Origin: Collinsella aerofaciens
Lineage (GTDB): Bacteria; Actinomycetota; Coriobacteriia; Coriobacteriales; Coriobacteriaceae
Direction of reading: 5' to 3'
Assembly: GCF_015555045.1 (NCBI RefSeq)
Contig: NZ_JADNJQ010000005.1
Span: 1-64,000 of the forward strand
DNA length: 64,000 bases
The notes below the pieces were generated by a model. The model did not search any database, was not told the DNA's origin, and saw only the letters and a list, made by a program, of their open reading frames with translations. Made by a program: the position numbers and the translations under genes. Positions 7,617 through 34,031 of the stretch are shown here, piece by piece; position 1 is the first letter of the stretch, and the number at the start of each line of letters is the position of its first letter.

Positions 7617-7693
7617 GCTCCATTAGCTCAGTTGGATAGAGCAGGGGACTTCTAATCCCAAGGTCGACGGTTCGAATCCGCCATGGAGCACCA
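7617..7693 (+). tRNA. tRNA-Arg (anticodon TCT)
   Basis: A full cloverleaf can be folded: acceptor GCTCCAT with ATGGAGC, D-stem GCTC/GAGC, anticodon loop CTTCTAA giving anticodon TCT (codons AGA/AGG), T-loop TTCGAAT, discriminator A and an encoded CCA at 7691-7693. Two stem positions look mismatched (G-A at 27-43 and A-C in the T-stem). A rho-independent terminator follows directly. Confidence 0.93.
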
Positions 7694-7702
7694 ACGTTTA
7701 TT

Positions 7703-7734
7703 AAGCCCGGACCGCTAGGTGGTCCGGGCTTTTT
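7703..7734 (+). terminator. Intrinsic terminator after tRNA-Arg(TCT)
   Basis: An 11-base perfect stem AAGCCCGGACC (7703-7713 with 7721-7731), a 7-base loop, and a T run to 7734. Confidence 0.9.
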
Positions 7735-7740
7735 CACATG

Positions 7741-7969
7741 CCGGTGTTCTTTATTCTTGCCGAGTATACGTTTAGGCCGAAGCGGTGGTGCGAGCGTTCT
7801 GCGGGCAAGCCAGTCTGGCAATCTTTACGATCCATGCGGTCGATTGGTTTATTCCGTGGCAGACCATGCCTCTGCTTATGACGCTGCCAGCATCGTGGCT
7901 CTTCGCGTCAATCGTACGCTGCGCCTGCGATATTGGATTGGCGTACGTAATCAAGAAGGCGTAATAACG
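7741..7969. other. Intergenic stretch with no gene seen
   Basis: Between the two terminators I find no frame with an SD, no repeat and no RNA gene. Short open frames on both strands here cross the terminators or the tRNA and look random. Confidence 0.6.
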
Positions 7970-7998
7970 GCGGGGAGGACCAACTTGGCCCTCCCCGC
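7970..7998 (-). terminator. Hairpin ending the ATPase/DUF4869 module
   Basis: A 9-base stem (GCGGGGAGG 7970-7978 with CCTCCCCGC 7990-7998) lies 6 bases past the ATPase stop codon. The minus-strand tail CGTTATTACG is only moderately T-rich, so this is a likely but not ideal terminator. Confidence 0.6.
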
Positions 7999-8003
7999 TG
8001 TAT

Positions 8004-9005
8004 CTAGTCTGTCTTCAGGCACTCGGGTAAGACGTTTGCAACTGCATTCATCGCCTGCGGCCTTAGGTATTGCTCATTGAGTTTTGCTTTTTTGTAGGCA
8101 TAGCGAGTGTCTGCTGAGTATTTGACCAATACATCGGTAAAGAATCGCTCCCAGCTCAGGTAATCGCGGCTTTCGATATAGCTCGAAGGATCCTTGAGGA
8201 TTTTTGGAATGTCGTTACTGGGAATGAGGCCAGATTGCAGAAGTGTCCACTCAAATGATTCCGGGAGGAACAAGCGAACGTTCTTGTAAACGCGCTGTCC
8301 GAGCACCTTTTCGATGTAGGGACCAAACGCTGCGCCGTCTCCAATGGCAAGAACGTTTTGCTCGGGGCATTCGTGAATTGTCCGCTTTAGATTTGCTACG
8401 CCGGTGGCGGTATAGCAGGGGATCCCGAGCCGGTTGCAAAGAGCGTTGTAGAATTGATAGCCAGATTTGCTATCTTCGACAACTACGGCGTCGGGTACCT
8501 CGAATCCAACATTTAGATCCTGATACAGCATACTTGCCGTGTGGTCATATAGCGGCTTGGTCACCGAGTAGAAGCGTCTGTCGCTCTTGCGGCCATTGAT
8601 TGTTTTACTTGTCGTGTTGACTAACTTCAGGATCTCATCAACGCTGTAGGGGAGCTCGTTGGCATCGCGACGAGATATCAGAACATAATAGTTGGATGAT
8701 CCGTTGACGTCTTTGGCGAAGTCCTTTGAGTAGATAAACTCGTTGCCCTCATCTAGAAAGACGATTGAATCTTCGATGATCGACAGCTCGCGCTCCCAGC
8801 GTCTGCCGGAAAGCGTTTCGCAAGGCACGTCGCAGCTGAGCGTAACGCCGCTTTCCGGTCCTCGGTCGTTGTAGTCGCGAATCATCGAGATGAGCGTCGT
8901 TTTGCCCGTGCCGCTGTTGCCGCGTATAAAGGAAATATTGCGCTTAAACGTGAGTGTGTATTTGACCTTTGCACGCTCTACGACAACGGTATGCGTTCCC
9001 TTCAT
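8004..9005 (-). CDS. P-loop ATPase with a possible TOPRIM-like C-terminal half
   Basis: A 333-residue protein. The N-terminal half is a P-loop ATPase: FIRGNSGTGKTTLI with Walker A GNSGTGKTT at 29-37 and a Walker B-like IVFLDEGNEF at 81-90; the later SRRDANELPYSVDEIL may hold sensor residues. The second half has acidic motifs VVVEDSKSGYQF (E177) and LAIGDGAAFGPYIE (D223), arranged like a TOPRIM or OLD-type metal site, but this is inference. Its ATG shares one base with the stop of the upstream DUF4869-like gene (TAATG), so the two are translationally coupled. Sampled lines are 48% G+C, far below the aro genes next door, which suggests transfer. Function is unknown; a defence or stress-response role is possible. 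Confidence 0.75.
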   Translation of the reverse strand: MKGTHTVVVERAKVKYTLTFKRNISFIRGNSGTGKTTLISMIRDYNDRGPESGVTLSCDVPCETLSGRRWERELSIIEDSIVFLDEGNEFIYSKDFAKDVNGSSNYYVLISRRDANELPYSVDEILKLVNTTSKTINGRKSDRRFYSVTKPLYDHTASMLYQDLNVGFEVPDAVVVEDSKSGYQFYNALCNRLGIPCYTATGVANLKRTIHECPEQNVLAIGDGAAFGPYIEKVLGQRVYKNVRLFLPESFEWTLLQSGLIPSNDIPKILKDPSSYIESRDYLSWERFFTDVLVKYSADTRYAYKKAKLNEQYLRPQAMNAVANVLPECLKTD

Positions 9006-9454
9006 TACTCATCAACATCCAAAAAGTCATTCGTGGCACCGACAAACTCCTGCATGTTCCTGACGATGCGGCCGTCGTTATTGATACGAATCTCAAAACG
9101 CTTCCAGGGGAACTTCATGATGTGGTAAAGGGTTACCAGCACATCCTGTTCTTTGCCAATTTTGAGCAGCCAGCGGGCACAATTGTCTCCGCAGGTGGAT
9201 GCGTTGAACACCATGTTTGGGATATTGCGTACCAGCAGCAGCGTCTTAACGCCGCCGGACAGTTCGAGTGGAGTGATTGAGCCCAGCTGCTTGCTTACGA
9301 TGTTGTGGGGACCGATGAGCTCTGATCCGTCCACGCTTTTAATAATCTGTGCGGCCATAGGATCTTCGAACCATGAGTCCAAGTATGAGTTCCTAAAATA
9401 GGTTTCGGTATCGTAGATGGAACCGGGGTAATCTCCCAGATGGATGCTCAGCAT
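9005..9454 (-). CDS. DUF4869-like protein
   Basis: A 149-residue soluble protein starting MLSIHLGDYPGSIYDTE. I chose the ATG at 9454 because GGAG lies 7 bases upstream; the frame extends to 9544 but the extra part has no SD and covers a likely promoter and the aro terminator hairpin. Size and N-terminal pattern agree with my memory of DUF4869, a bacterial family of unknown function; I could not verify this by search. It contains the motifs IYDTETYF, LELSGGVKTLLL and a Cys pair in STCGDNCA. It overlaps the ATPase by one base, so the two proteins probably act together. Confidence 0.7.
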   Translation of the reverse strand: MLSIHLGDYPGSIYDTETYFRNSYLDSWFEDPMAAQIIKSVDGSELIGPHNIVSKQLGSITPLELSGGVKTLLLVRNIPNMVFNASTCGDNCARWLLKIGKEQDVLVTLYHIMKFPWKRFEIRINNDGRIVRNMQEFVGATNDFLDVDE

Positions 9455-9485
9455 GTGGGTCTCCAGACGTTGTGTGACTGCAACG

Positions 9486-9491
9486 ATTATA
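9486..9491 (-). promoter_or_regulatory. Candidate -10 of the ATPase/DUF4869 module
   Basis: On the minus strand a perfect TATAAT lies 31 bases before the ATG at 9454, directly downstream of the aro-operon terminator. No clear -35 is visible, as the expected place falls in that terminator stem. Confidence 0.45.
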
Positions 9492-9497
9492 TGCCAG

Positions 9498-9536
9498 TAA
9501 TAAAATGCCGGCAGCAGCGAGGTCGCTGCTGCCGGC
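9498..9536 (-). terminator. Terminator of the aro operon
   Basis: A perfect 14-base inverted repeat (9507-9520 with 9523-9536, GCCGGCAGCAGCGA) with a 2-base spacer is followed on the minus strand by ATTTTATTA. It lies 48 bases past the aroQ stop and insulates the accessory module from the aro operon. Confidence 0.85.
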
Positions 9537-9584
9537 GCTGGCATTATTAGCGTGTGAATCGCGTTGATGGATTTGCTCGCGAGG

Positions 9585-10022
9585 CTACTTTTCGAGATGC
9601 TCCCTCAGCAGCTCCAGCGCGTGAGCGTAGCCTTGGAGGCCCTCGCCGGTGATGGTGGCGAAGCAGGCTAGGCGTGCATAGCTCACCTGGCGGAAGTCCT
9701 CGCGGGTCTCGACGGCGCTGATGTGGACCTCGACGGCAGGGATGGCGACGGCCTTGAGGGCGTCGAGGATCGCGACGCTCGTATGCGTATAGGCGGCCGG
9801 GTTTATGACGATGCCGTCGACCTTGCCGTAGGCCTCCTGGATCTTGTCGACGATGCTGCCCTCGTGGTTAGACTGGAAGACCTCGACCTCGTCGAAGCCC
9901 TGTGCGGCGCCCGCTTTCTGGCAAATCTGGACCAGGCGGTCGTAGTTGTCGCTGCCGTAGATGCCCGGCTCGCGAATGCCGAGCATGTTGAGGTTGGGGC
10001 CGTTGATGACGAGTGCTTTCAT
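9585..10022 (-). CDS. aroQ: 3-dehydroquinate dehydratase, type II
   Basis: A 145-residue type II dehydroquinase, matching the family's length of about 145-150. It starts MKALVINGPNLNMLG and keeps the loop arginine and tyrosine of REPGIYGSDNY, the NPAAYTHTSVAILDAL segment, and the EVHISAVETREDFR region that binds substrate. It dehydrates 3-dehydroquinate to 3-dehydroshikimate and acts as a cytosolic dodecamer in known members. The ATG at 10022 follows AAAGGAAG; the longer frame has no SD. It is the last gene of the aro operon, separated from aroEK by 64 bases that contain a hairpin. Confidence 0.96.
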   Translation of the reverse strand: MKALVINGPNLNMLGIREPGIYGSDNYDRLVQICQKAGAAQGFDEVEVFQSNHEGSIVDKIQEAYGKVDGIVINPAAYTHTSVAILDALKAVAIPAVEVHISAVETREDFRQVSYARLACFATITGEGLQGYAHALELLREHLEK

Positions 10023-10047
10023 GGTTGCTTCCTTTGCGGTTGAAAAG

Positions 10048-10079
10048 CCAGCACAAAGGTGCCTGTCCCCTTTGTGCTG
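10048..10079. repeat. Intergenic hairpin between aroEK and aroQ
   Basis: A perfect 12-base inverted repeat (CCAGCACAAAGG 10048-10059 with CCTTTGTGCTGG 10068-10079) has an 8-base loop TGCCTGTC. On the minus strand it is followed by CTTTTC, so it could partly terminate before aroQ. It may also be an extragenic palindromic repeat, as the core GACAGGCACCTTTG has a weak relative near 51420. Confidence 0.65.
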
Positions 10080-10086
10080 GTTTTGG

Positions 10087-11337
10087 TTAAAGAGCGGGTG
10101 GGAGGGTGTCGAGGAGGGCATGGGCGGTGTTGGCGGCGCAGTCGCGTGAGTCGATGATGTAGTCGGCCCAGGCGCGGTAGCGCGGCATACGCTGTTCGGC
10201 CAGCTTATCGATGCCGTCGCGCGCGGTGATGGGGCGGCCCTTGTGGGCGAGTTCGTCGAGCTTGCGATTGAGCATCACGATCTGGCTGTTTTGGTGCAGC
10301 AGCGGGTAGTTCTCGTCGCGTGTGACCACGCCGCCGCCGGTGGAGAGCACCAAGCCGCTGCGCTTGGAGATGTCGGACAGAGCCACCGTCTCCTGCTCGC
10401 GGAAGGCCGCCTCGCCGCGCTCGACGATAAAGTCGGTGCAGGGCATGTCGAGGCGTTCCTCGAGGGCGCGGTCCAGGTCGATGTGCTCGCGACCCGTGAG
10501 CAGGGCAATCTGCTCACCCACGCGGGTCTTGCCCGAGCCCGGCATGCCGATCAGCGCGATGTTCTGTTCGCGGCGTGACAAGCGCTCCGTTACATCCAGG
10601 ATGCGCTTGCGCGGGGTGACCTGGCCGGTGTAGCGCTCAACAGCCTGTGCCGCTTGGGCCACGAGCATCAGCAGACCGCCGATGCAGGGGATACCGCGGC
10701 GCTCGGCCTCGAGCATGAGTCCCGTGCGGGCGGGGTTGTAGACAATGTCGATGACGCCCTCGAGCGCATCGAGCCCTTCGAGCGTGCAAGGCGCGTCGGG
10801 GCAATGGGGGAACATGCCGGCGGGCGTGCAGTTGACGAGCAGGGCGGCGTCGGATTGCTGCGCGATGTTGCCGTAGTTGACCTCGCTTGTGCGGCCCACG
10901 GGCACCACGGTGGCGCCCAGGTCGCCGAGTACCATGCTTGCCGTGGTGCCGGCGCCGCCGGTGGCTCCGAGCACGAGAGCCTTCTTGCCGGCAACCTCAA
11001 CCCCCAGCTCCTCGACCAGGCACTGAAAACCAAAGTAGTCGGTGTTGTCGCCGCGCAGGCGGCCGTCGGGCAGGCGCGTGATGGTGTTGACGTTGCCCAT
11101 GCGCTCGGCGAGCGGGCTCAGCTCGTCCAGGTAGTTCATGACGGCGCGTTTGTAGGGGATGGTCACGTTGGTGCCTTCCCATTCTTTACCCGTCATAAAG
11201 GCCGCGAGGTCCTCGGGCTCGCGCTCAAATCGCACGTAATCGAGCCCAGCGAGCTCTTTGTAGATGGTCGGGGTGTAGCTGTGGCCCAGCACGCGGCCCA
11301 GCACACCGTAGGGGCGGGTTGCGGCGGTATCGGTCAT
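10087..11337 (-). CDS. aroEK: Shikimate dehydrogenase / shikimate kinase fusion
   Basis: A 416-residue two-domain enzyme. Residues 1-250 are shikimate dehydrogenase: the substrate loop GHSYTPTIY, catalytic K63 (NVTIPYK) and D100 (GDNTD), and the NADP motif GATGGAG at 124-130. Residues 255-416 are shikimate kinase: Walker A GMPGSGKT at 264-271, HIDLDR, the FRE arginine near 313 and TGGG at 333-336. It would convert 3-dehydroshikimate to shikimate-3-phosphate in one polypeptide. It directly abuts pheA upstream with no gap. Both active sites look intact, so the fusion is likely bifunctional. Confidence 0.95.
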   Translation of the reverse strand: MTDTAATRPYGVLGRVLGHSYTPTIYKELAGLDYVRFEREPEDLAAFMTGKEWEGTNVTIPYKRAVMNYLDELSPLAERMGNVNTITRLPDGRLRGDNTDYFGFQCLVEELGVEVAGKKALVLGATGGAGTTASMVLGDLGATVVPVGRTSEVNYGNIAQQSDAALLVNCTPAGMFPHCPDAPCTLEGLDALEGVIDIVYNPARTGLMLEAERRGIPCIGGLLMLVAQAAQAVERYTGQVTPRKRILDVTERLSRREQNIALIGMPGSGKTRVGEQIALLTGREHIDLDRALEERLDMPCTDFIVERGEAAFREQETVALSDISKRSGLVLSTGGGVVTRDENYPLLHQNSQIVMLNRKLDELAHKGRPITARDGIDKLAEQRMPRYRAWADYIIDSRDCAANTAHALLDTLPPAL

Positions 11338-12483
11338 CTAGAGCACCTCCGTGTAGCTGCCAAAGTAGGTGAAGCTCTCGCACACGTCGTCGATGGAATC
11401 GAGCAGGTCGTCGAGGGCCTTGCTGCCAAAGGGGCAGTCCAGATCAAAGTAGAACATAAACTCAAAGTCGCGGCCGGGGATGGGGCGGCTCTCGAGCTTG
11501 ATGAGGTTGATGTTGAGTGCGTAGAAGCGCTCGAGCACGCGATAGAGGGCGCCCGGCTCGTTGGCCGTGGTGATCATGAGCGAGGTGCGATTAGCGCCGG
11601 GGTAGACGCGCGGCTCGCGGCTGATGACGACAAAGCGCGTGTAGTTGTTGTCCGAGTCTTGGATATTGGGATCCAGCACCTCGAGGCCATACAGCGTGGC
11701 ACAGCTGCGCGAGGCGATGGCGGCGACGTCGGTGCGCTCGGAGTTGGCGACCATCTCGGCCGACATGGCCGTGTTGGGGTACTTGGTGGCGTGCAGGCCG
11801 TGGGACTCGATAAAGCCGGCACACTGGGCAATGGCTTGGCCGTGGCTGTAGACCTCGCGTATGTCCGCGAGCTTGGTGCCGGGCTTGACGAGCAGGTTGT
11901 GGTCGATCTTGAGGCGCAGCGAACGCACGATATGGAAGTCGAACTGGGCGAGCAGGTCGTAGACGGCGTTGACCGAGCCGGCGGTGGAGTTCTCGATGGG
12001 CAGCACGCCAAACTCGCAGAAGCCGTCGCGCACAGCGCGCATAACGCCTTCGAAGGTCTCGAAAAACGCGATGTCGGGCACGTCGAAGAGCTTGCACGCG
12101 GCGATTTGACTGTAAGCGCCCTCAACGCCCTGGCAAGCGACGGTGGCAGTTTGAGGGAAGGGCGTGTCGGAGGCTGCAGCCGTGGCGTGGGCCTTTTGCG
12201 AGACGGTGATGCCCTTGAGTTCGTTGATGTAGCGCTGCTGCTCGGCCTTGCTCATGCTCATGAGGAGACGAAACAGGGTGATGGTCTGCGCCTCATAGCG
12301 CTCGGGCGCGCGGCTGGCGAGGTTGTTGAGTTTGGAGCGCTCGCGGGCGGGGTCGAAGACGGCCTTGCCCATCTCGATTTTTGACTTGGCGACCTCGGTG
12401 GCAATGTCCATGCGCTCGATAAAGCTGTTGAGGAGCGTGGTGTCGATGCCATCGATGGTCTGGCGGATGTCAGCAAGGTCCAT
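11338..12483 (-). CDS. pheA: Chorismate mutase / prephenate dehydratase (P-protein)
   Basis: A 381-residue P-protein. Residues 1-90 form an AroQ-type chorismate mutase helix domain (DIRQTIDGIDTTLLNSFIER), about 110-290 the prephenate dehydratase (GVEGAYS; VLPIENSTAGSV; NNYTRF), and about 300-375 an ACT domain with the phenylalanine-binding ESRP motif (KLESRPIPGRDFEFMFY). It turns chorismate to prephenate and then to phenylpyruvate, and the ACT domain implies feedback inhibition by Phe. It sits 39 bases after aroC and abuts aroEK. Confidence 0.96.
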   Translation of the reverse strand: MDLADIRQTIDGIDTTLLNSFIERMDIATEVAKSKIEMGKAVFDPARERSKLNNLASRAPERYEAQTITLFRLLMSMSKAEQQRYINELKGITVSQKAHATAAASDTPFPQTATVACQGVEGAYSQIAACKLFDVPDIAFFETFEGVMRAVRDGFCEFGVLPIENSTAGSVNAVYDLLAQFDFHIVRSLRLKIDHNLLVKPGTKLADIREVYSHGQAIAQCAGFIESHGLHATKYPNTAMSAEMVANSERTDVAAIASRSCATLYGLEVLDPNIQDSDNNYTRFVVISREPRVYPGANRTSLMITTANEPGALYRVLERFYALNINLIKLESRPIPGRDFEFMFYFDLDCPFGSKALDDLLDSIDDVCESFTYFGSYTEVL

Positions 12484-12522
12484 AGGGACCCCTTTCGTGA
12501 ATCATTGCCCGGGGTGGGCGGG

Positions 12523-13620
12523 TTAGCGCTGGGCGGCGTCCTCTAGGAGGGCGTCCCAAATCGCGAGGGCAGCGGCTGCTTCGGCTACGGGGACGGCTCG
12601 GGGGACGATGCAGGGGTCGTGGCGGCCGTGGACCGAGAGCTCGGCATTTTCCATGGCGTCCATGTCTACGGTCTGCTGCTCGCGGCCAATAGAGGGCGTC
12701 GGCTTTACGGCCATACGCCACATGACAGGCGCGCCGGTCGAAATACCGCCCAGGATGCCGCCGGCGTTATTGGACTCGACTTCGATCTCGCCGGTCTCGG
12801 CATCGATGCGATACGGATCGTTGTTCTCGCTGCCGCGCATGGCGGCCACGGCAAAGCCCATGCCAAACTCCACGCCCTTTACGGCGGGAATGCCAAACGC
12901 GATTTGCGCGATGCGGTTCTCGATGCCGTCGAACATGGGGTCGCCGATGCCCGCGGGAAGCCCGTAGATGCCGCACTCCACGATGCCGCCGATGCTGTCG
13001 AGTTCGTCGCGCGCGGCTAGGATCTCCTCGCGCATGCGGCCGGCTGCGGCGGCGTCAATGCACGGCAGATCGTTCGTAAGGATCGCCTTGCGGTCGGCCT
13101 CGCGATAGACTATGTCGTCCATCGGCAGGTCGGAGATGCCGCCGATCTGCGCCACATGCGCCATCACCCGAATGCCGCGGGCCTCGAGTGCCTGCAGCGC
13201 GATGCCGCCGGCGATGCATAGAGGGGCCGTCAGACGGCCGGAGAAGTGCCCGCCGCCGGCGACGTCGTGCATGTTGTGGTACTTCACACGCGCCGGAAAG
13301 TCTGCGTGCCCGGGGCGGGGCTTGCGGCGCAGCTCGGAATAGTCCTTGGAGCGCGTGTTGGTGTTCTCGATAATCGCGGCGATGGGCGCGCCGGTGGTAT
13401 GTTCATCGACAACACCGGCGATGATGTGGGCGGCGTCGGCCTCGCGGCGTTTGGTCGCGGTCTCGTCGCGACCGGGGGCGCGACGGTCGAGGAAGGCCTG
13501 CAGCTTCTCCTGGTCCACGGCGATGCCCGCCGGGATGCCATCGAGCGAGCAGCCGATAGCGGGGGAGTGCGATTGGCCGAAGATGCTCAGATGCAAGACA
13601 TTGCCAAAGGTCGAGGACAT
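12523..13620 (-). CDS. aroC: Chorismate synthase
   Basis: A 365-residue chorismate synthase, normal length for the family. It makes chorismate from EPSP using reduced FMN. Recognisable parts are the N-terminal FGQSHSPAIG (the GESHG signature in other bacteria), RPGHADF, the signature AGGHFSGRLTAPLCIAGGIA, and the late NNAGGILGGISTGAPV segment. The start ATG is one base from the aroA stop codon, so translation is probably coupled. The GQSHS variant of the first signature is worth noting but other key parts are present. Confidence 0.96.
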   Translation of the reverse strand: MSSTFGNVLHLSIFGQSHSPAIGCSLDGIPAGIAVDQEKLQAFLDRRAPGRDETATKRREADAAHIIAGVVDEHTTGAPIAAIIENTNTRSKDYSELRRKPRPGHADFPARVKYHNMHDVAGGGHFSGRLTAPLCIAGGIALQALEARGIRVMAHVAQIGGISDLPMDDIVYREADRKAILTNDLPCIDAAAAGRMREEILAARDELDSIGGIVECGIYGLPAGIGDPMFDGIENRIAQIAFGIPAVKGVEFGMGFAVAAMRGSENNDPYRIDAETGEIEVESNNAGGILGGISTGAPVMWRMAVKPTPSIGREQQTVDMDAMENAELSVHGRHDPCIVPRAVPVAEAAAALAIWDALLEDAAQR

Positions 13621-13621
13621 G

Positions 13622-14941
13622 CTATTCCTCCTCGAGCGTGACCTTGCCGCCCAGCAGACGGTAGTGGTCGAAGAAATCGGGATAGGACTTGTTGACGGCC
13701 TCGGCGCCGTGGATCACGACCTCGCCGGTGGCGCGGCTCGCGGCGATGGCGGCCATCATGGCGATGCGGTGGTCGTTGTGCGAATCGACCTCACCGCCGG
13801 TGAAGGCATCGACGCCCTTGATGATGAGGTCGTCGCCGGCAATGCGCACCTGCGCGCCCAGCGCGGTGAGCTCGCGGGTGGTGGTGGCCAGGCGGTCGGA
13901 TTCCTTGATACGCAGACGGGCGCAATCGCGGATGAACGTGCGGCCCTGAGCCAGCGAGGCCACGGCCGAGATAACGGGCACCAGGTCGGGGATGTCGTGG
14001 GCGCTCATCTCAAAGCCGGCGAGCTTGTCGGACTGCACGGTGGCGGCGTTGGTGGAGCGCACGATGCGGGCGCCAAAGCGCGAAAGCGCGGCAAGCACGT
14101 TGCGGTCGCCCTGCGCGGAGCTCAGCGACACGCCCTCCACGGTGATGGGGTCGGTGCCGATGGCGCCGGCGCACAGCCAAAAGGCGGCGTTGGACCAGTC
14201 TCCCTCGACGGCTACGCTGCCGGGCGTACGGTACGATCCGCTGTTTACGCGGAAGTTCGTGACCTCGGGCTGGCCGTCCTTGGCGGGGATACGTTCGACG
14301 TTGACCTCGACACCAAAGGCCTTCATGGCCTGGATGGTCAGGTTGATATAGGGGCGGCTCTCGATGAGGCCGGTCACTTGCACACAGGAGGGCTGGGCCA
14401 GTAGCGGGGCCGCCAGCAGCAGGCCGGAGATATACTGCGAGCTCACGTTGCCCGGAAGCACAAAGGTGCCCGGGCGCATGCGGCCGCTCGTCTTGAGCGG
14501 AAAACCGCCCAGACCCTGTAGGTCGCAGCCGGCGGCGATAATCTCGTCCGAGAGCGGGGACAGCGGGCGGGCGCCTAAGCGTCCCTGACCCACAAAAGTT
14601 GCTTCTGCGCCCAGCGCGCAGGCGACGGGCAACATAAAGCGCAGCGTGGAGCCACTCTCGCCGCAGTCGAGCGTGCCGCCGGCTAGGGCCTTGAGCAGGC
14701 CAAATTCAATGCTCTTCATGGTGGGGTGGACCTGGAAGCCGTCCTCGGCGGTCTCGATGCGAGCACCCAGGGCCGTAAGGCAACGCACCGTAGCCTCGAT
14801 GTCGGCGCAGGTGGTGTTACAGGCGACGTGCGTCTCGCCGTTGGCAAGCGCAGCGCAGATGATCAGGCGGTGCGCCATCGACTTGGACGCGATGGCGGGA
14901 ACGGTGCCCTTAAGCGGGGACGGGGTGATGCGGGCTAGCAT
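13622..14941 (-). CDS. aroA: 3-phosphoshikimate 1-carboxyvinyltransferase (EPSP synthase)
   Basis: A 439-residue EPSP synthase with two inside-out alpha/beta domains. Visible motifs are KSMAHRLIICAALA (PEP/S3P-binding Lys-Ser), LDCGESGSTLRFMLPV (the first family signature), SSQYISGLLLAAPLL, and the late RIKESDRLATTTREL and NDHRIAMMAA (the second signature). It condenses shikimate-3-phosphate with phosphoenolpyruvate. The gene overlaps the end of aroB by 7 bases and ends one base before aroC, so it is tightly coupled within the aro operon. Confidence 0.97.
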   Translation of the reverse strand: MLARITPSPLKGTVPAIASKSMAHRLIICAALANGETHVACNTTCADIEATVRCLTALGARIETAEDGFQVHPTMKSIEFGLLKALAGGTLDCGESGSTLRFMLPVACALGAEATFVGQGRLGARPLSPLSDEIIAAGCDLQGLGGFPLKTSGRMRPGTFVLPGNVSSQYISGLLLAAPLLAQPSCVQVTGLIESRPYINLTIQAMKAFGVEVNVERIPAKDGQPEVTNFRVNSGSYRTPGSVAVEGDWSNAAFWLCAGAIGTDPITVEGVSLSSAQGDRNVLAALSRFGARIVRSTNAATVQSDKLAGFEMSAHDIPDLVPVISAVASLAQGRTFIRDCARLRIKESDRLATTTRELTALGAQVRIAGDDLIIKGVDAFTGGEVDSHNDHRIAMMAAIAASRATGEVVIHGAEAVNKSYPDFFDHYRLLGGKVTLEEE

Positions 14942-31344: not shown

Positions 31345-33222
31345 TTGCGCGTTGCATACCAAGACTGTTTTCATTTAATTGAGCCGTTGCTCGCCAAGGT
31401 CGAGAAGCCGAGCCGCTATATCGATCACGAGTGGGGCACGCTTTCCAAGGCCGATGCCGACTACCGTTGCTGCCTGATCTATCCGGATGTGTACGAGGTC
31501 GGTCTGCCCAACCAGGGCATCGCCATCCTCTACAACATCCTTAACCAGGCCGAGGGCATCTCCTGCGAGCGCGGCTATGTGCCGTGGCCCGATATGGGCG
31601 ACGCCATGCGCGAGGCGGGTATTCCGCTGCTATCGCTCGAGGGTGCAGCGCCGGTCGCTTCGTTTGATATCGTCGGTCTGCATGTGCCGCACGAGATGGC
31701 GGTGACGAACTTCCTCGAGGCTTTGGACCTCGCTGGCATTCCGCTGTTAGCGGCCGACCGAGGTGAAGACGACCCAATCATCATCGCCGGCGGTCCCTCG
31801 GTGTACAACCCCGAGCCGTACGCGGCCTTCTTCGATGCCATCCTCATCGGTGAGGGCGAGGAATCGCTGCTCGAGACCTGCCAGCTGCATCGCCGCCTGC
31901 GTGACGAAGGGGTCCCGCGCGCGCAGATTGTTGAGCAGCTTGCATCCATTGCCGGCAACTACGTGCCGTCGCTCTATGAGGTTCGTCACGACGAGCCCTG
32001 CTCGCCGCATGGCTACACCGTGCCGCGTGAAGGCAAGGATGCGCCTACTGTGGTCTACAAACGCGTCGTCGAGGATTTCGGCGCCACGAATCCGCTGTCG
32101 CAGTCGTGCGTACCCTATGCGCAGCTAGTCCACGACCGCCTGTCTATCGAGATCCTGCGCGGCTGCGCCCGCGGCTGTCGTTTTTGCCAGGCCGGCATGA
32201 CGTATCGCCCGGTGCGCGAGCGCTCGGCCGACCAGATCGTCTCGTCGGTGATTCAGGGTCTGGAAAAGACCGGCTATGACGAGGTGTCGCTGACCTCGCT
32301 CTCCACGACCGACCACTCCTGCATTCGCGACGTGCTCGGCAGGCTCAACCGTCGCCTGGAGGATACGGGTATTCGCGTGTCTATTCCGTCGCAGCGCCTG
32401 GATTCGTTTGGCGTGGATATGGCCGAGTCGGTCGCCGGCGAAAAGAAGGGCGGCCTGACGTTCGCGCCCGAGGCCGGCAGCCAGCGCATGCGCGACATCA
32501 TTAACAAGAACGTGACCGAGGAGGACTTGGACCGTGCGGCCAAGGCGGCCTTCGAGGCCGGCTGGAACCGTATGAAGCTCTACTTTATGATGGGCCTTCC
32601 CGGTGAGCGCGACGAGGACATCGTGGCCATCGCCAATCTGGCCGATCACGTGCTGGAGCTCGGTCGTTCCGTGGTGCCCAAGGCTCGTCGCGGCTCGATC
32701 TCGGTGTCCATCTCGGTTTCGGTCTTTATCCCCAAGGCTGCCACGCCGTTCCAGTGGTGCCCGCAGCTCGACTACGACGACGTCAAGCGTCGCCAGAAGC
32801 TGCTTATCACGAGCGTTCGCAACCGTGCCGTCCGCGTGCATTACCACGATGCCGAGACTTCGCTCATCGAGGCCGCGCTGTCCCGCGCCGGTCGCGACAT
32901 GACGCCCGTCATCATCGATGCTTGGCGCTCGGGCTCTCGCTTTGACGCCTGGGTAGAGCATTTCTCGCTCGATAACTGGAAGGAGGCTGCTGCCAAAAAC
33001 GGCATCGACCTCAATGAGCTCGTGCACCTGCCCTACGAGTTGGACTGGCGCCTGCCGTGGGAGCACGTGAGCCCCGGCTGCACGCGCGGCTTCCTCGAGC
33101 GCGAGTACCGTCGCTCGCTCGAGGGCGTCACGACTCCCGACTGTACCCGCACGTCGTGCACCGGCTGCGGGATCTGCCCCACGCTCCACGCCAAGAATGT
33201 ATTGATGGGTGATCGCGCATGA
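31345..33222 (+). CDS. B12-binding-fold radical SAM protein (TIGR03960 type)
   Basis: A 625-residue radical SAM protein. The N-terminal 180 residues have a cobalamin-binding-like fold (YPDVYEVGLPNQGIAILYN), then the cluster motif C274-x3-C278-x2-C281 in RGCARGCRFCQAGM, and a TIM barrel with LTSLSTTDHSCI, FAPEAGSQRMRDIINK and KLYFMMGLPGE. The C-terminus has four extra cysteines (C600, C605, C608, C611). The start is TTG at 31345. It overlaps the next gene by 4 bases (ATGA). The substrate is unknown; tRNA or other RNA modification has been guessed from its position next to ribosomal genes. Confidence 0.85.
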   Translation: MRVAYQDCFHLIEPLLAKVEKPSRYIDHEWGTLSKADADYRCCLIYPDVYEVGLPNQGIAILYNILNQAEGISCERGYVPWPDMGDAMREAGIPLLSLEGAAPVASFDIVGLHVPHEMAVTNFLEALDLAGIPLLAADRGEDDPIIIAGGPSVYNPEPYAAFFDAILIGEGEESLLETCQLHRRLRDEGVPRAQIVEQLASIAGNYVPSLYEVRHDEPCSPHGYTVPREGKDAPTVVYKRVVEDFGATNPLSQSCVPYAQLVHDRLSIEILRGCARGCRFCQAGMTYRPVRERSADQIVSSVIQGLEKTGYDEVSLTSLSTTDHSCIRDVLGRLNRRLEDTGIRVSIPSQRLDSFGVDMAESVAGEKKGGLTFAPEAGSQRMRDIINKNVTEEDLDRAAKAAFEAGWNRMKLYFMMGLPGERDEDIVAIANLADHVLELGRSVVPKARRGSISVSISVSVFIPKAATPFQWCPQLDYDDVKRRQKLLITSVRNRAVRVHYHDAETSLIEAALSRAGRDMTPVIIDAWRSGSRFDAWVEHFSLDNWKEAAAKNGIDLNELVHLPYELDWRLPWEHVSPGCTRGFLEREYRRSLEGVTTPDCTRTSCTGCGICPTLHAKNVLMGDRA

Positions 33223-34031
33223 GTGAGCGCCTGACCGACAACTCCTCGCTCTTTAGGCTTCGTGTTCGCTATGGCAAGCGCGATCGCCTTAAGTACCTGG
33301 GCCATCTCGAAGTAATCCATACCATTGAGCGCATCGTGCGCCGTGCGGGACTTCCCTATGCCGTCACGCAGGGCTTCTCTCCGCACATGCGCGTGGGCTT
33401 CTCTTCGGCGCTGCCGGTGGGTACGTCGTCGACCTGCGAGTGGTATGACCTGTTTATGACCGAGTTCGTGGCGCTCGACGAGGCGTTTGGGCGCCTGGCT
33501 GCGGCGTCTCCGGCCGATCTGGCGCCCATCGAGGCGGCGTACATCGACGTGCGCACGCCGGCGTTGACGGCGCAGCTCACGCGCCTGTCGTATCGCATCG
33601 ACCTGCACTTGGATCCCGAGGCGCCCGTAAGCGCCGACGAGGTGCGTCGTGCGATCGACACGCTGCGCGCGGGCCACGGCATCGACTACGCGCGCGGCAA
33701 AAAGAGCAAGCGCTTGGATTTGGATCACACGCTCGTGGGCTATGAGCTCACGGCGGGGGAGCGCCCAGACCATTTGGTGCTCATGCTCGACACCCATGCC
33801 GACAACGAGGGCTCCATGCGTCCGGAAATTTTGCTTTCTGCTGCTGATGTTTTGTTGCAGGGCTTGACCCCGGGCGTGGATGCACCTATTGTTTCCACCG
33901 GTATGCAAGACCTCGTGACCATCTGCTCCTACGATGTCGAGCGTCAGAATCAAGCATGCGAGGACGACGAGGGCCGACTCGTCAGCCCCATACCTGTGCG
34001 AACTTGTGGATTTGCTCCACATACTCGTTGA
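33219..34031 (+). CDS. Radical SAM-linked protein (TIGR03936/DUF2344)
   Basis: A 270-residue protein of the family that occurs fused to or next to TIGR03960-type radical SAM proteins. It starts FRLRVRYGKRDRLKYLGHLE, followed by GFSPHMRVGFSSALPVGTSS, both typical. It overlaps the radical SAM gene by ATGA and so is translationally coupled. The family resembles the RNA-binding part of some tRNA enzymes, so it may present the substrate to the radical SAM partner; this is inference. The last 30 residues have low similarity to the family core and pass the rplU -35 (34028-34033). Confidence 0.85.
   Translation: MSERLTDNSSLFRLRVRYGKRDRLKYLGHLEVIHTIERIVRRAGLPYAVTQGFSPHMRVGFSSALPVGTSSTCEWYDLFMTEFVALDEAFGRLAAASPADLAPIEAAYIDVRTPALTAQLTRLSYRIDLHLDPEAPVSADEVRRAIDTLRAGHGIDYARGKKSKRLDLDHTLVGYELTAGERPDHLVLMLDTHADNEGSMRPEILLSAADVLLQGLTPGVDAPIVSTGMQDLVTICSYDVERQNQACEDDEGRLVSPIPVRTCGFAPHTR

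Follow-up and report, generated by a model that had tools for sequence, protein, structure and literature searches.

The described systems that come closest to the locus analysed here are PARIS, the OLD family (including GajA of Gabija and P2 Old), and the PtuA ATPases of Septu and retrons. In PARIS, the ABC protein AriA is complete in a single chain. PtuA is itself an ATP-binding protein, and its partner is an HNH nuclease. The metal ligands of TOPRIM domains sit after the first and third strands of the domain. AriB of PARIS cleaves tRNA, acting as a two-metal TOPRIM ribonuclease (PMC12409363). In Ts OLD, the TOPRIM metal ligands are E377, D431, D433, D381, S478, and E480, and killing by P2 Old requires both of its domains (PMC7049728). 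ABC ATPases, those of the OLD type included, use their signature and D-loop in trans, on the nucleotide of the partner (PMC7049728).

We analysed a two-gene locus of Collinsella aerofaciens that encodes a P-loop ATPase with a TOPRIM-like C-terminal half and a protein of the Pfam family DUF4869. We put the probability at roughly 0.55 that the two genes are a mobile effector-antidote module based on a split ABC ATPase, possibly with an anti-phage role.

The gene pair and its occurrence

The window referred to below is the whole stretch of DNA that was analysed (64,000 nucleotides, contig NZ_JADNJQ010000005.1); the features of the locus are collected in Table 1. A preliminary description of this DNA had reported an overlapping gene pair with a TATAAT upstream on the same strand, a hairpin at each border, a low G+C content, and a position between a tRNA-Arg and a core operon. 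Both open reading frames were found, with the shared base, and the module does lie between the tRNA-Arg and the aro genes. The TATAAT is present as well, and a search upstream of the pair for a -35 partner found none. The G+C content is 0.502 for the module and 0.606 for the 64-kb window, in which 0.4% of 1450-base windows are equally low. The two border hairpins also exist; however, the one on the side of the aro genes is better read as the aroQ terminator, which probably separates the aro operon from the module. The inverted repeat behind the ATPase gene is the probable terminator of the module. An alternative upstream start of the DUF4869 reading frame is located at 9544, and the homologues favour the ATG at 9454. 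Integration at the tRNA-Arg was considered and rejected: no tRNA-end repeat flanks the module, and no integrase adjoins it.

Table 1. Features of the module and its surroundings, in window coordinates.
Feature	Position	Strand	Description
DUF4869 gene	9005-9454	minus	149 aa; open reading frame found at these positions; PF16163 match
ATPase gene with TOPRIM-like half	8004-9005	minus	333 aa; open reading frame found at these positions
TAATG	9003-9007	minus	DUF4869 stop and ATPase start overlap at base 9005
GGAG, ribosome-binding-site-like	9461-9464	minus	6 nt 5' of the DUF4869 ATG; read from the sequence
TATAAT	9486-9491	minus	upstream of the gene pair
Hairpin with T-rich tail ATTTTATTAC	9507-9536	minus	probably aroQ terminator
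Inverted repeat, 17-nt arms, 88%	7967-8001	minus	directly 3' of the ATPase stop codon
tRNA-Arg(tct)	7617-7693		
aro genes	9585-14941		assigned by translation and by comparison with the syntenic operon as annotated in C. aerofaciens
Stretch missing at the empty site in ten relatives	7735-9585	not applicable	site comparison

A relative of the ATPase is present in 20 of 45 genomes of the genus Collinsella, and DUF4869 in 22 of the 45; the closest named relatives are from Collinsella sp., at 94-95% identity. We compared the site in 30 genomes. Five contain the full module, ten are empty, three carry DUF4869 without the ATPase, six have another gene instead, judged from its sequence to encode a UDP-galactopyranose mutase, and six are too divergent to judge. 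At the empty sites of the ten relatives, the counterparts of window positions 7734 and 9586 are about 64 bases apart. The interval from tRNA-Arg to aroQ (window 7694-8003; loci L140, L142, and L149-L152) is variable, being empty or holding either the module or the UDP-galactopyranose mutase gene. Two records labelled as plasmids, NZ_OY725717 and NZ_CP143948 (L043 and L042), may in fact be parts of a chromosome: their contents include the aro operon, or proS and genes for sporulation.

Among 125 genera in a class-wide sample of 298 Coriobacteriia genomes, 7 contain DUF4869. At a higher level, the pair is found in gut Bacillota, Coriobacteriia, and Treponema. A scan of a genome contig collection returned 80 loci, from Coriobacteriia, many Lachnospiraceae and Oscillospiraceae, Erysipelotrichaceae, Selenomonas, and Treponema. 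DUF4869 adjoins the ATPase on the same strand in all 80 fetched loci, and is the upstream gene in nearly all of them. In the tree, a second Collinsella lineage nests in a Ruminococcus group (100/98), and Treponema sequences are found at two places; this branching pattern fits horizontal transfer. The preliminary description had named two outcomes that would speak against a defence or toxin-like system, namely a pair that is universal and syntenic in the genus without a link to islands, and a second half whose predicted fold has no TOPRIM-like sheet. We found neither: the pair is patchy and its site is often empty, and the fold of the second half is described below.

Alternatively, the pair could serve housekeeping or regulation, for instance in DNA repair or in the control of surface polysaccharides, and the TOPRIM-like part would then be no nuclease. 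The Collinsella site does fall in a variable surface-polysaccharide region, the P-loop half matches MutS as well as ABC proteins, and DUF4869 persists without its partner. However, the patchy distribution, the empty sites, the several gene lineages within one genus, and the frequent loss of the ATPase all argue against such a role, as does the lack of a consistent third gene: none was found to recur beside the 80 loci of the two-gene version. We regard this explanation as quite improbable.

Predicted folds and complementary motifs

Structure prediction for the ATPase gave a model with a pLDDT of 89.0 and a pTM of 0.84. Residues 1-160 form a P-loop/ABC-type core, with Walker A at 29-36 (GNSGTGKT) and D85 and E86 in Walker B (IVFLDE), and the model is without a helical subdomain between the two motifs. 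In a fold search, residues 2-160 matched the ATPase cores of ABC and MutS proteins with Z values of about 7-9. Residues 170-331 are TOPRIM-like and include E177, D178, D223, E249, E252, and K306. Alignments were built for 71 ATPases and 68 DUF4869 proteins; a motif census showed that Walker A and Walker B, which had been described as intact, and also E177 and D223 are each kept in 70 or 71 of the 71 ATPases.

The fusion of a P-loop domain to a TOPRIM-like half with acidic residues, a possibility raised in the preliminary description, agrees with the model. Residues 170-331 match the TOPRIM domain of the OLD protein from B. pseudomallei (6nk8; 136 residues aligned, 3.8 A) with a Z of 7.6, a value that falls in the range of common folds and, being just under 8, may reflect a common arrangement. 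E177 stands directly after the first strand of this half (173-176) and D223 after the third (217-221). Both in the fused and in the separate TOPRIM-like versions, E177, D178, D223, E252, E286, and K306 show little or no variation, and the second aspartate of the DxD motif is replaced by Ala225. Scans of pooled members gave no TOPRIM family match for the ATPase, and its scans against Pfam, NCBIfam, PADLOC, and PHROGs gave generic P-loop matches alone. A profile search of solved structures returned no near relative of the module proteins and none for the TOPRIM-like part, and a search of the viral fold library yielded nothing useful. We conclude from the model that the C-terminal half is likely a TOPRIM domain, and do not state this more firmly because of Ala225 in DxD, the absence of a sequence match, and the Z value just under 8.

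The partner is a DUF4869 protein, as had been proposed: its match to PF16163 (161 bits, E 1.6e-47; curated cut-off 28.9 bits) is far beyond chance. The structure predicted with AlphaFold (pLDDT 93.5, pTM 0.89) has best Foldseek matches that are nearly all ABC-type (ABCB6, PtuA, cohesin SMC, MsbA, and AriA), none of them with an E-value below 1e-3. The VIA matches are also ABC-type (SMC, Rad50, RecN, ABCE1, AriA, and retron ATPases), with low Z values of 3.7-5.2; in these alignments, which start at DUF4869 residue 1, that residue falls on the strand ahead of the P-loop. In a blind profile-profile alignment of DUF4869 with ABC transporter domains collected for this analysis, the signature was the only part that aligned (LGSITPLELSGGVK / LAERTPHDLSGGEK, Prob 69%, P 4e-5), in a match that spans just 14 columns. 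Unrelated control profiles gave Prob values below 1%, and the DUF4869 profile had no match to AAA_21-type ATPases (Prob 0.4%). Scans of pooled members returned no ABC family match for DUF4869.

The ABC motifs are divided between the two proteins. Walker A (GxxxxGK[ST]) is present in 71/71 ATPases versus 0/68 DUF4869 proteins. The signature is found at DUF4869 residues 65-70 as LSGGVK, with LSxGxK in 67 of the 68 proteins, and at its expected position in 0 of 71 ATPases; the ATPases do contain 15 LSxG-like strings, all of them off the signature position and 14 within the TOPRIM-like half. Alignment by eye placed three further features in DUF4869: Asn84, which is invariant and lies near the Walker B position; a D-loop-like CGDN at 88-91; and a conserved H111. 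Since the signature and the D-loop act in trans, DUF4869 and the P-loop protein could together build exactly one composite ATP site. We call DUF4869 a degenerate subunit, and not an ABC ATPase by itself, because Walker A is missing from all 68 proteins; judging from the models and motifs, it is most likely the signature-bearing half of an ABC ATPase and not a mere add-on. The odds are in our view slightly better than even that an ABC ATPase has been split in two polypeptides through complementary motif loss, and that these form an obligate heterodimer whose single composite ATP site gates a TOPRIM effector. Among open-access journal papers, we found none that names the DUF4869 family, and a text search there for an ABC ATPase split in this way returned nothing relevant.

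Among other ARRANGEMENTS, a divergent three-gene version with overlapping or adjoining genes occurs in Lachnospiraceae (operons at loci L194, L195, L198, L203, L204, and L205). Its genes encode a TOPRIM-like protein (223-246 aa), a P-loop protein (about 140 aa), and a DUF4869-like protein whose signature reads LS[SAT]GCKT. Walker A is found in 11/11 of these P-loop proteins and 0/10 of the DUF4869-like proteins, and the signature in 10/10 DUF4869-like proteins and 0/11 P-loop proteins. The separate TOPRIM-like family has no meaningful Pfam match. The TOPRIM gene has shrunk to about 40 codons at one locus (L199) and is absent from another (L200), and the other two genes are kept in both; at two further loci (L201 and L202), tblastn shows the TOPRIM gene to be present. 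Upstream of the L200 genes, a 211-aa protein without a Pfam match is encoded (L200:2729-3361), which is possibly a replaced effector. A single open reading frame of 307 aa (L206:2749-3669) joins the P-loop half directly to DUF4869, without a TOPRIM part. Taken together, these arrangements show three modules that can be separated, of which the two halves of the ABC ATPase belong to each other. Two other loci (L209 and L210) hold divergent two-gene versions in which the ATPase-TOPRIM protein is longer; in L210 the gene order is inverted.

Gene decay, selection, and the proposed mechanism

We surveyed 397 Lachnospiraceae genomes, some of them drafts, with all matches paired and five candidates scored per genome. 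Full-length DUF4869 genes free of stops number 79; the ATPase gene next to them is intact in 42 cases, broken in 26, and not detected in 11. The reverse case, an intact ATPase without an intact DUF4869, was found 0 times among the candidates scored in these genomes, and in the Coriobacteriia sample 35 of 35 intact ATPases are accompanied by DUF4869. If lesions fell according to gene length (0.69 for the ATPase), finding all 26 in the ATPase would have a P of about 7e-5, a value to be read with the events not all being independent. Of about 18 mapped ATPase deletions or truncations, about 14 start at residue 141 or later, and most lesions lie in the second half. Errors of assembly could account for some of the broken ATPases. 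One derived deletion junction is common to the three Collinsella genomes that lack the ATPase.

An orphan DUF4869 was compared between two genomes (G019 and G036). The dN is 0.031 and the dS is 0.701; the ratio of 0.04 points to strong purifying selection, and no ATPase relative was found anywhere in the G036 assembly. One-sided decay and the selection on orphans together argue that DUF4869 is useful alone and that its partner is not retained without it. One genome of Schaedlerella arabinosiphila (G304) has eight DUF4869 matches, several of which adjoin truncated ATPases. Lone DUF4869 genes of a second family occur in Collinsella (L159-L162, in G007, G032, G025, and G001); they have no ATPase remnant and adjoin uncharacterised and transposase-like reading frames.

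This decay pattern, read from the gene sequences, fits an antidote and a harmful effector, and not an obligate activator. With DUF4869 as the activator, the two halves would assemble upon a trigger only and switch the TOPRIM nuclease on, as in ATP-driven dimerisation of ABC proteins. The complementary motifs do imply that both proteins are required for ATP hydrolysis, and the trans action of signature and D-loop in OLD-type and other ABC ATPases (PMC7049728) also speaks for such assembly. However, an ATPase that is inert without DUF4869 should sometimes persist alone, and there are no such cases against up to 37 of the reverse; the strong purifying selection on the orphan DUF4869 also counts against an activator. 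We therefore consider this reading doubtful. The toxin-like character suggested in the preliminary description gains genetic support because gene decay is one-sided, and the pair is likely an undescribed toxin-antidote or phage-defence module.

We propose the following mechanism for an effector-antidote module. The 333-aa protein would supply the ATP-binding half, with Walker A and B, and its C-terminal TOPRIM-like domain would be the harmful effector. DUF4869 would be the partner ABC subunit, which has lost ATP binding and offers its signature and D-loop-like segment in trans. In the resting state, DUF4869 would be docked on this P-loop half, presumably together with ATP, and would keep the TOPRIM domain silent. 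The most plausible triggers would be infection by a phage or a disturbance of the complex; the TOPRIM domain, once freed or activated, would cut RNA or DNA and stop growth.

The same split-ABC mechanism could instead belong to a toxin-antitoxin module that is purely selfish: it would stabilise its own locus and play no part against phages. Consistent with this, the pair is an overlapping two-gene unit with the candidate antidote first, and orphan copies of this candidate antidote exist. The neighbouring genes are mostly housekeeping or surface genes: the nearest neighbours include type I specificity, JetD, MADS, and PD-T4-6 genes, but most are ordinary, and defence genes are a minority. A scan of a viral contig collection gave 387 pattern matches and confirmed no relative; five matches in a phage collection come from faecal contigs of unconfirmed phage origin and are weak evidence for carriage by phage. 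On the other hand, the ABC plus TOPRIM-like architecture resembles that of the anti-phage systems OLD, Gabija, and PARIS, and some copies adjoin Wadjet, type I restriction, or other defence-type genes. We consider a purely selfish role less likely than not.

If the effector-antidote reading is true, the uncharacterised family DUF4869 gains a fold and a mechanism, and gut bacteria a new ABC-TOPRIM effector module, possibly an anti-phage one. Nature would also have provided, in this pair, a clear example of an ABC ATPase in two complementary pieces, in which the roles of Walker A and signature are separable by genetics. Lone DUF4869 genes under strong selection would be candidate orphan antidotes or anti-defence immunity genes.

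Comparison with known systems

Type II toxin-antitoxin systems share with this module the overlapping pair, the candidate antidote in first position, and orphan antidotes kept by selection. They differ in that the candidate antidote here is ABC-like and not DNA-binding, and the candidate toxin has an ATP-binding domain. PtuA chains from Septu and retrons are among the best fold matches of DUF4869; however, DUF4869 is without Walker A.

The OLD family (GajA and P2 Old) has an N-terminal ABC-type ATPase followed by TOPRIM, an order that the present protein would share if its C-terminal half, which matches 6nk8 by fold, is a TOPRIM domain. The protein described here is much shorter, with 333 aa versus about 586 for P2 Old (CDS 31620-33380). 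It also lacks the helical signature subdomain, whereas a signature-like motif is found in the separate DUF4869 partner. No reading frame for a UvrD-like helicase, as in GajB of Gabija, lies beside the pair in the window, and no helicase recurs near the 80 loci.

PARIS, with its ABC protein paired with the AriB tRNase, would by analogy be the nearest working parallel. In both, an ABC-type ATPase would control a TOPRIM effector, and the DUF4869 model matches AriA (8v46, Z 4.2). In a PADLOC scan with the PARIS families, AriA was matched at E 0.052, over the P-loop only, which is no match at the family level, and AriB was not among the matches listed. In contrast to PARIS, the ABC function appears here to be shared by two proteins, and the TOPRIM-like domain is fused to the ATP-binding half. 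We do not class the module as PARIS, OLD, or Gabija because defining features of these systems were looked for and not found: family matches to AriA and AriB, a complete ABC domain with its helical subdomain in one chain, and a GajB gene next to the pair. ABC-TOPRIM systems are already known; the new element is the ABC ATPase divided into complementary halves.
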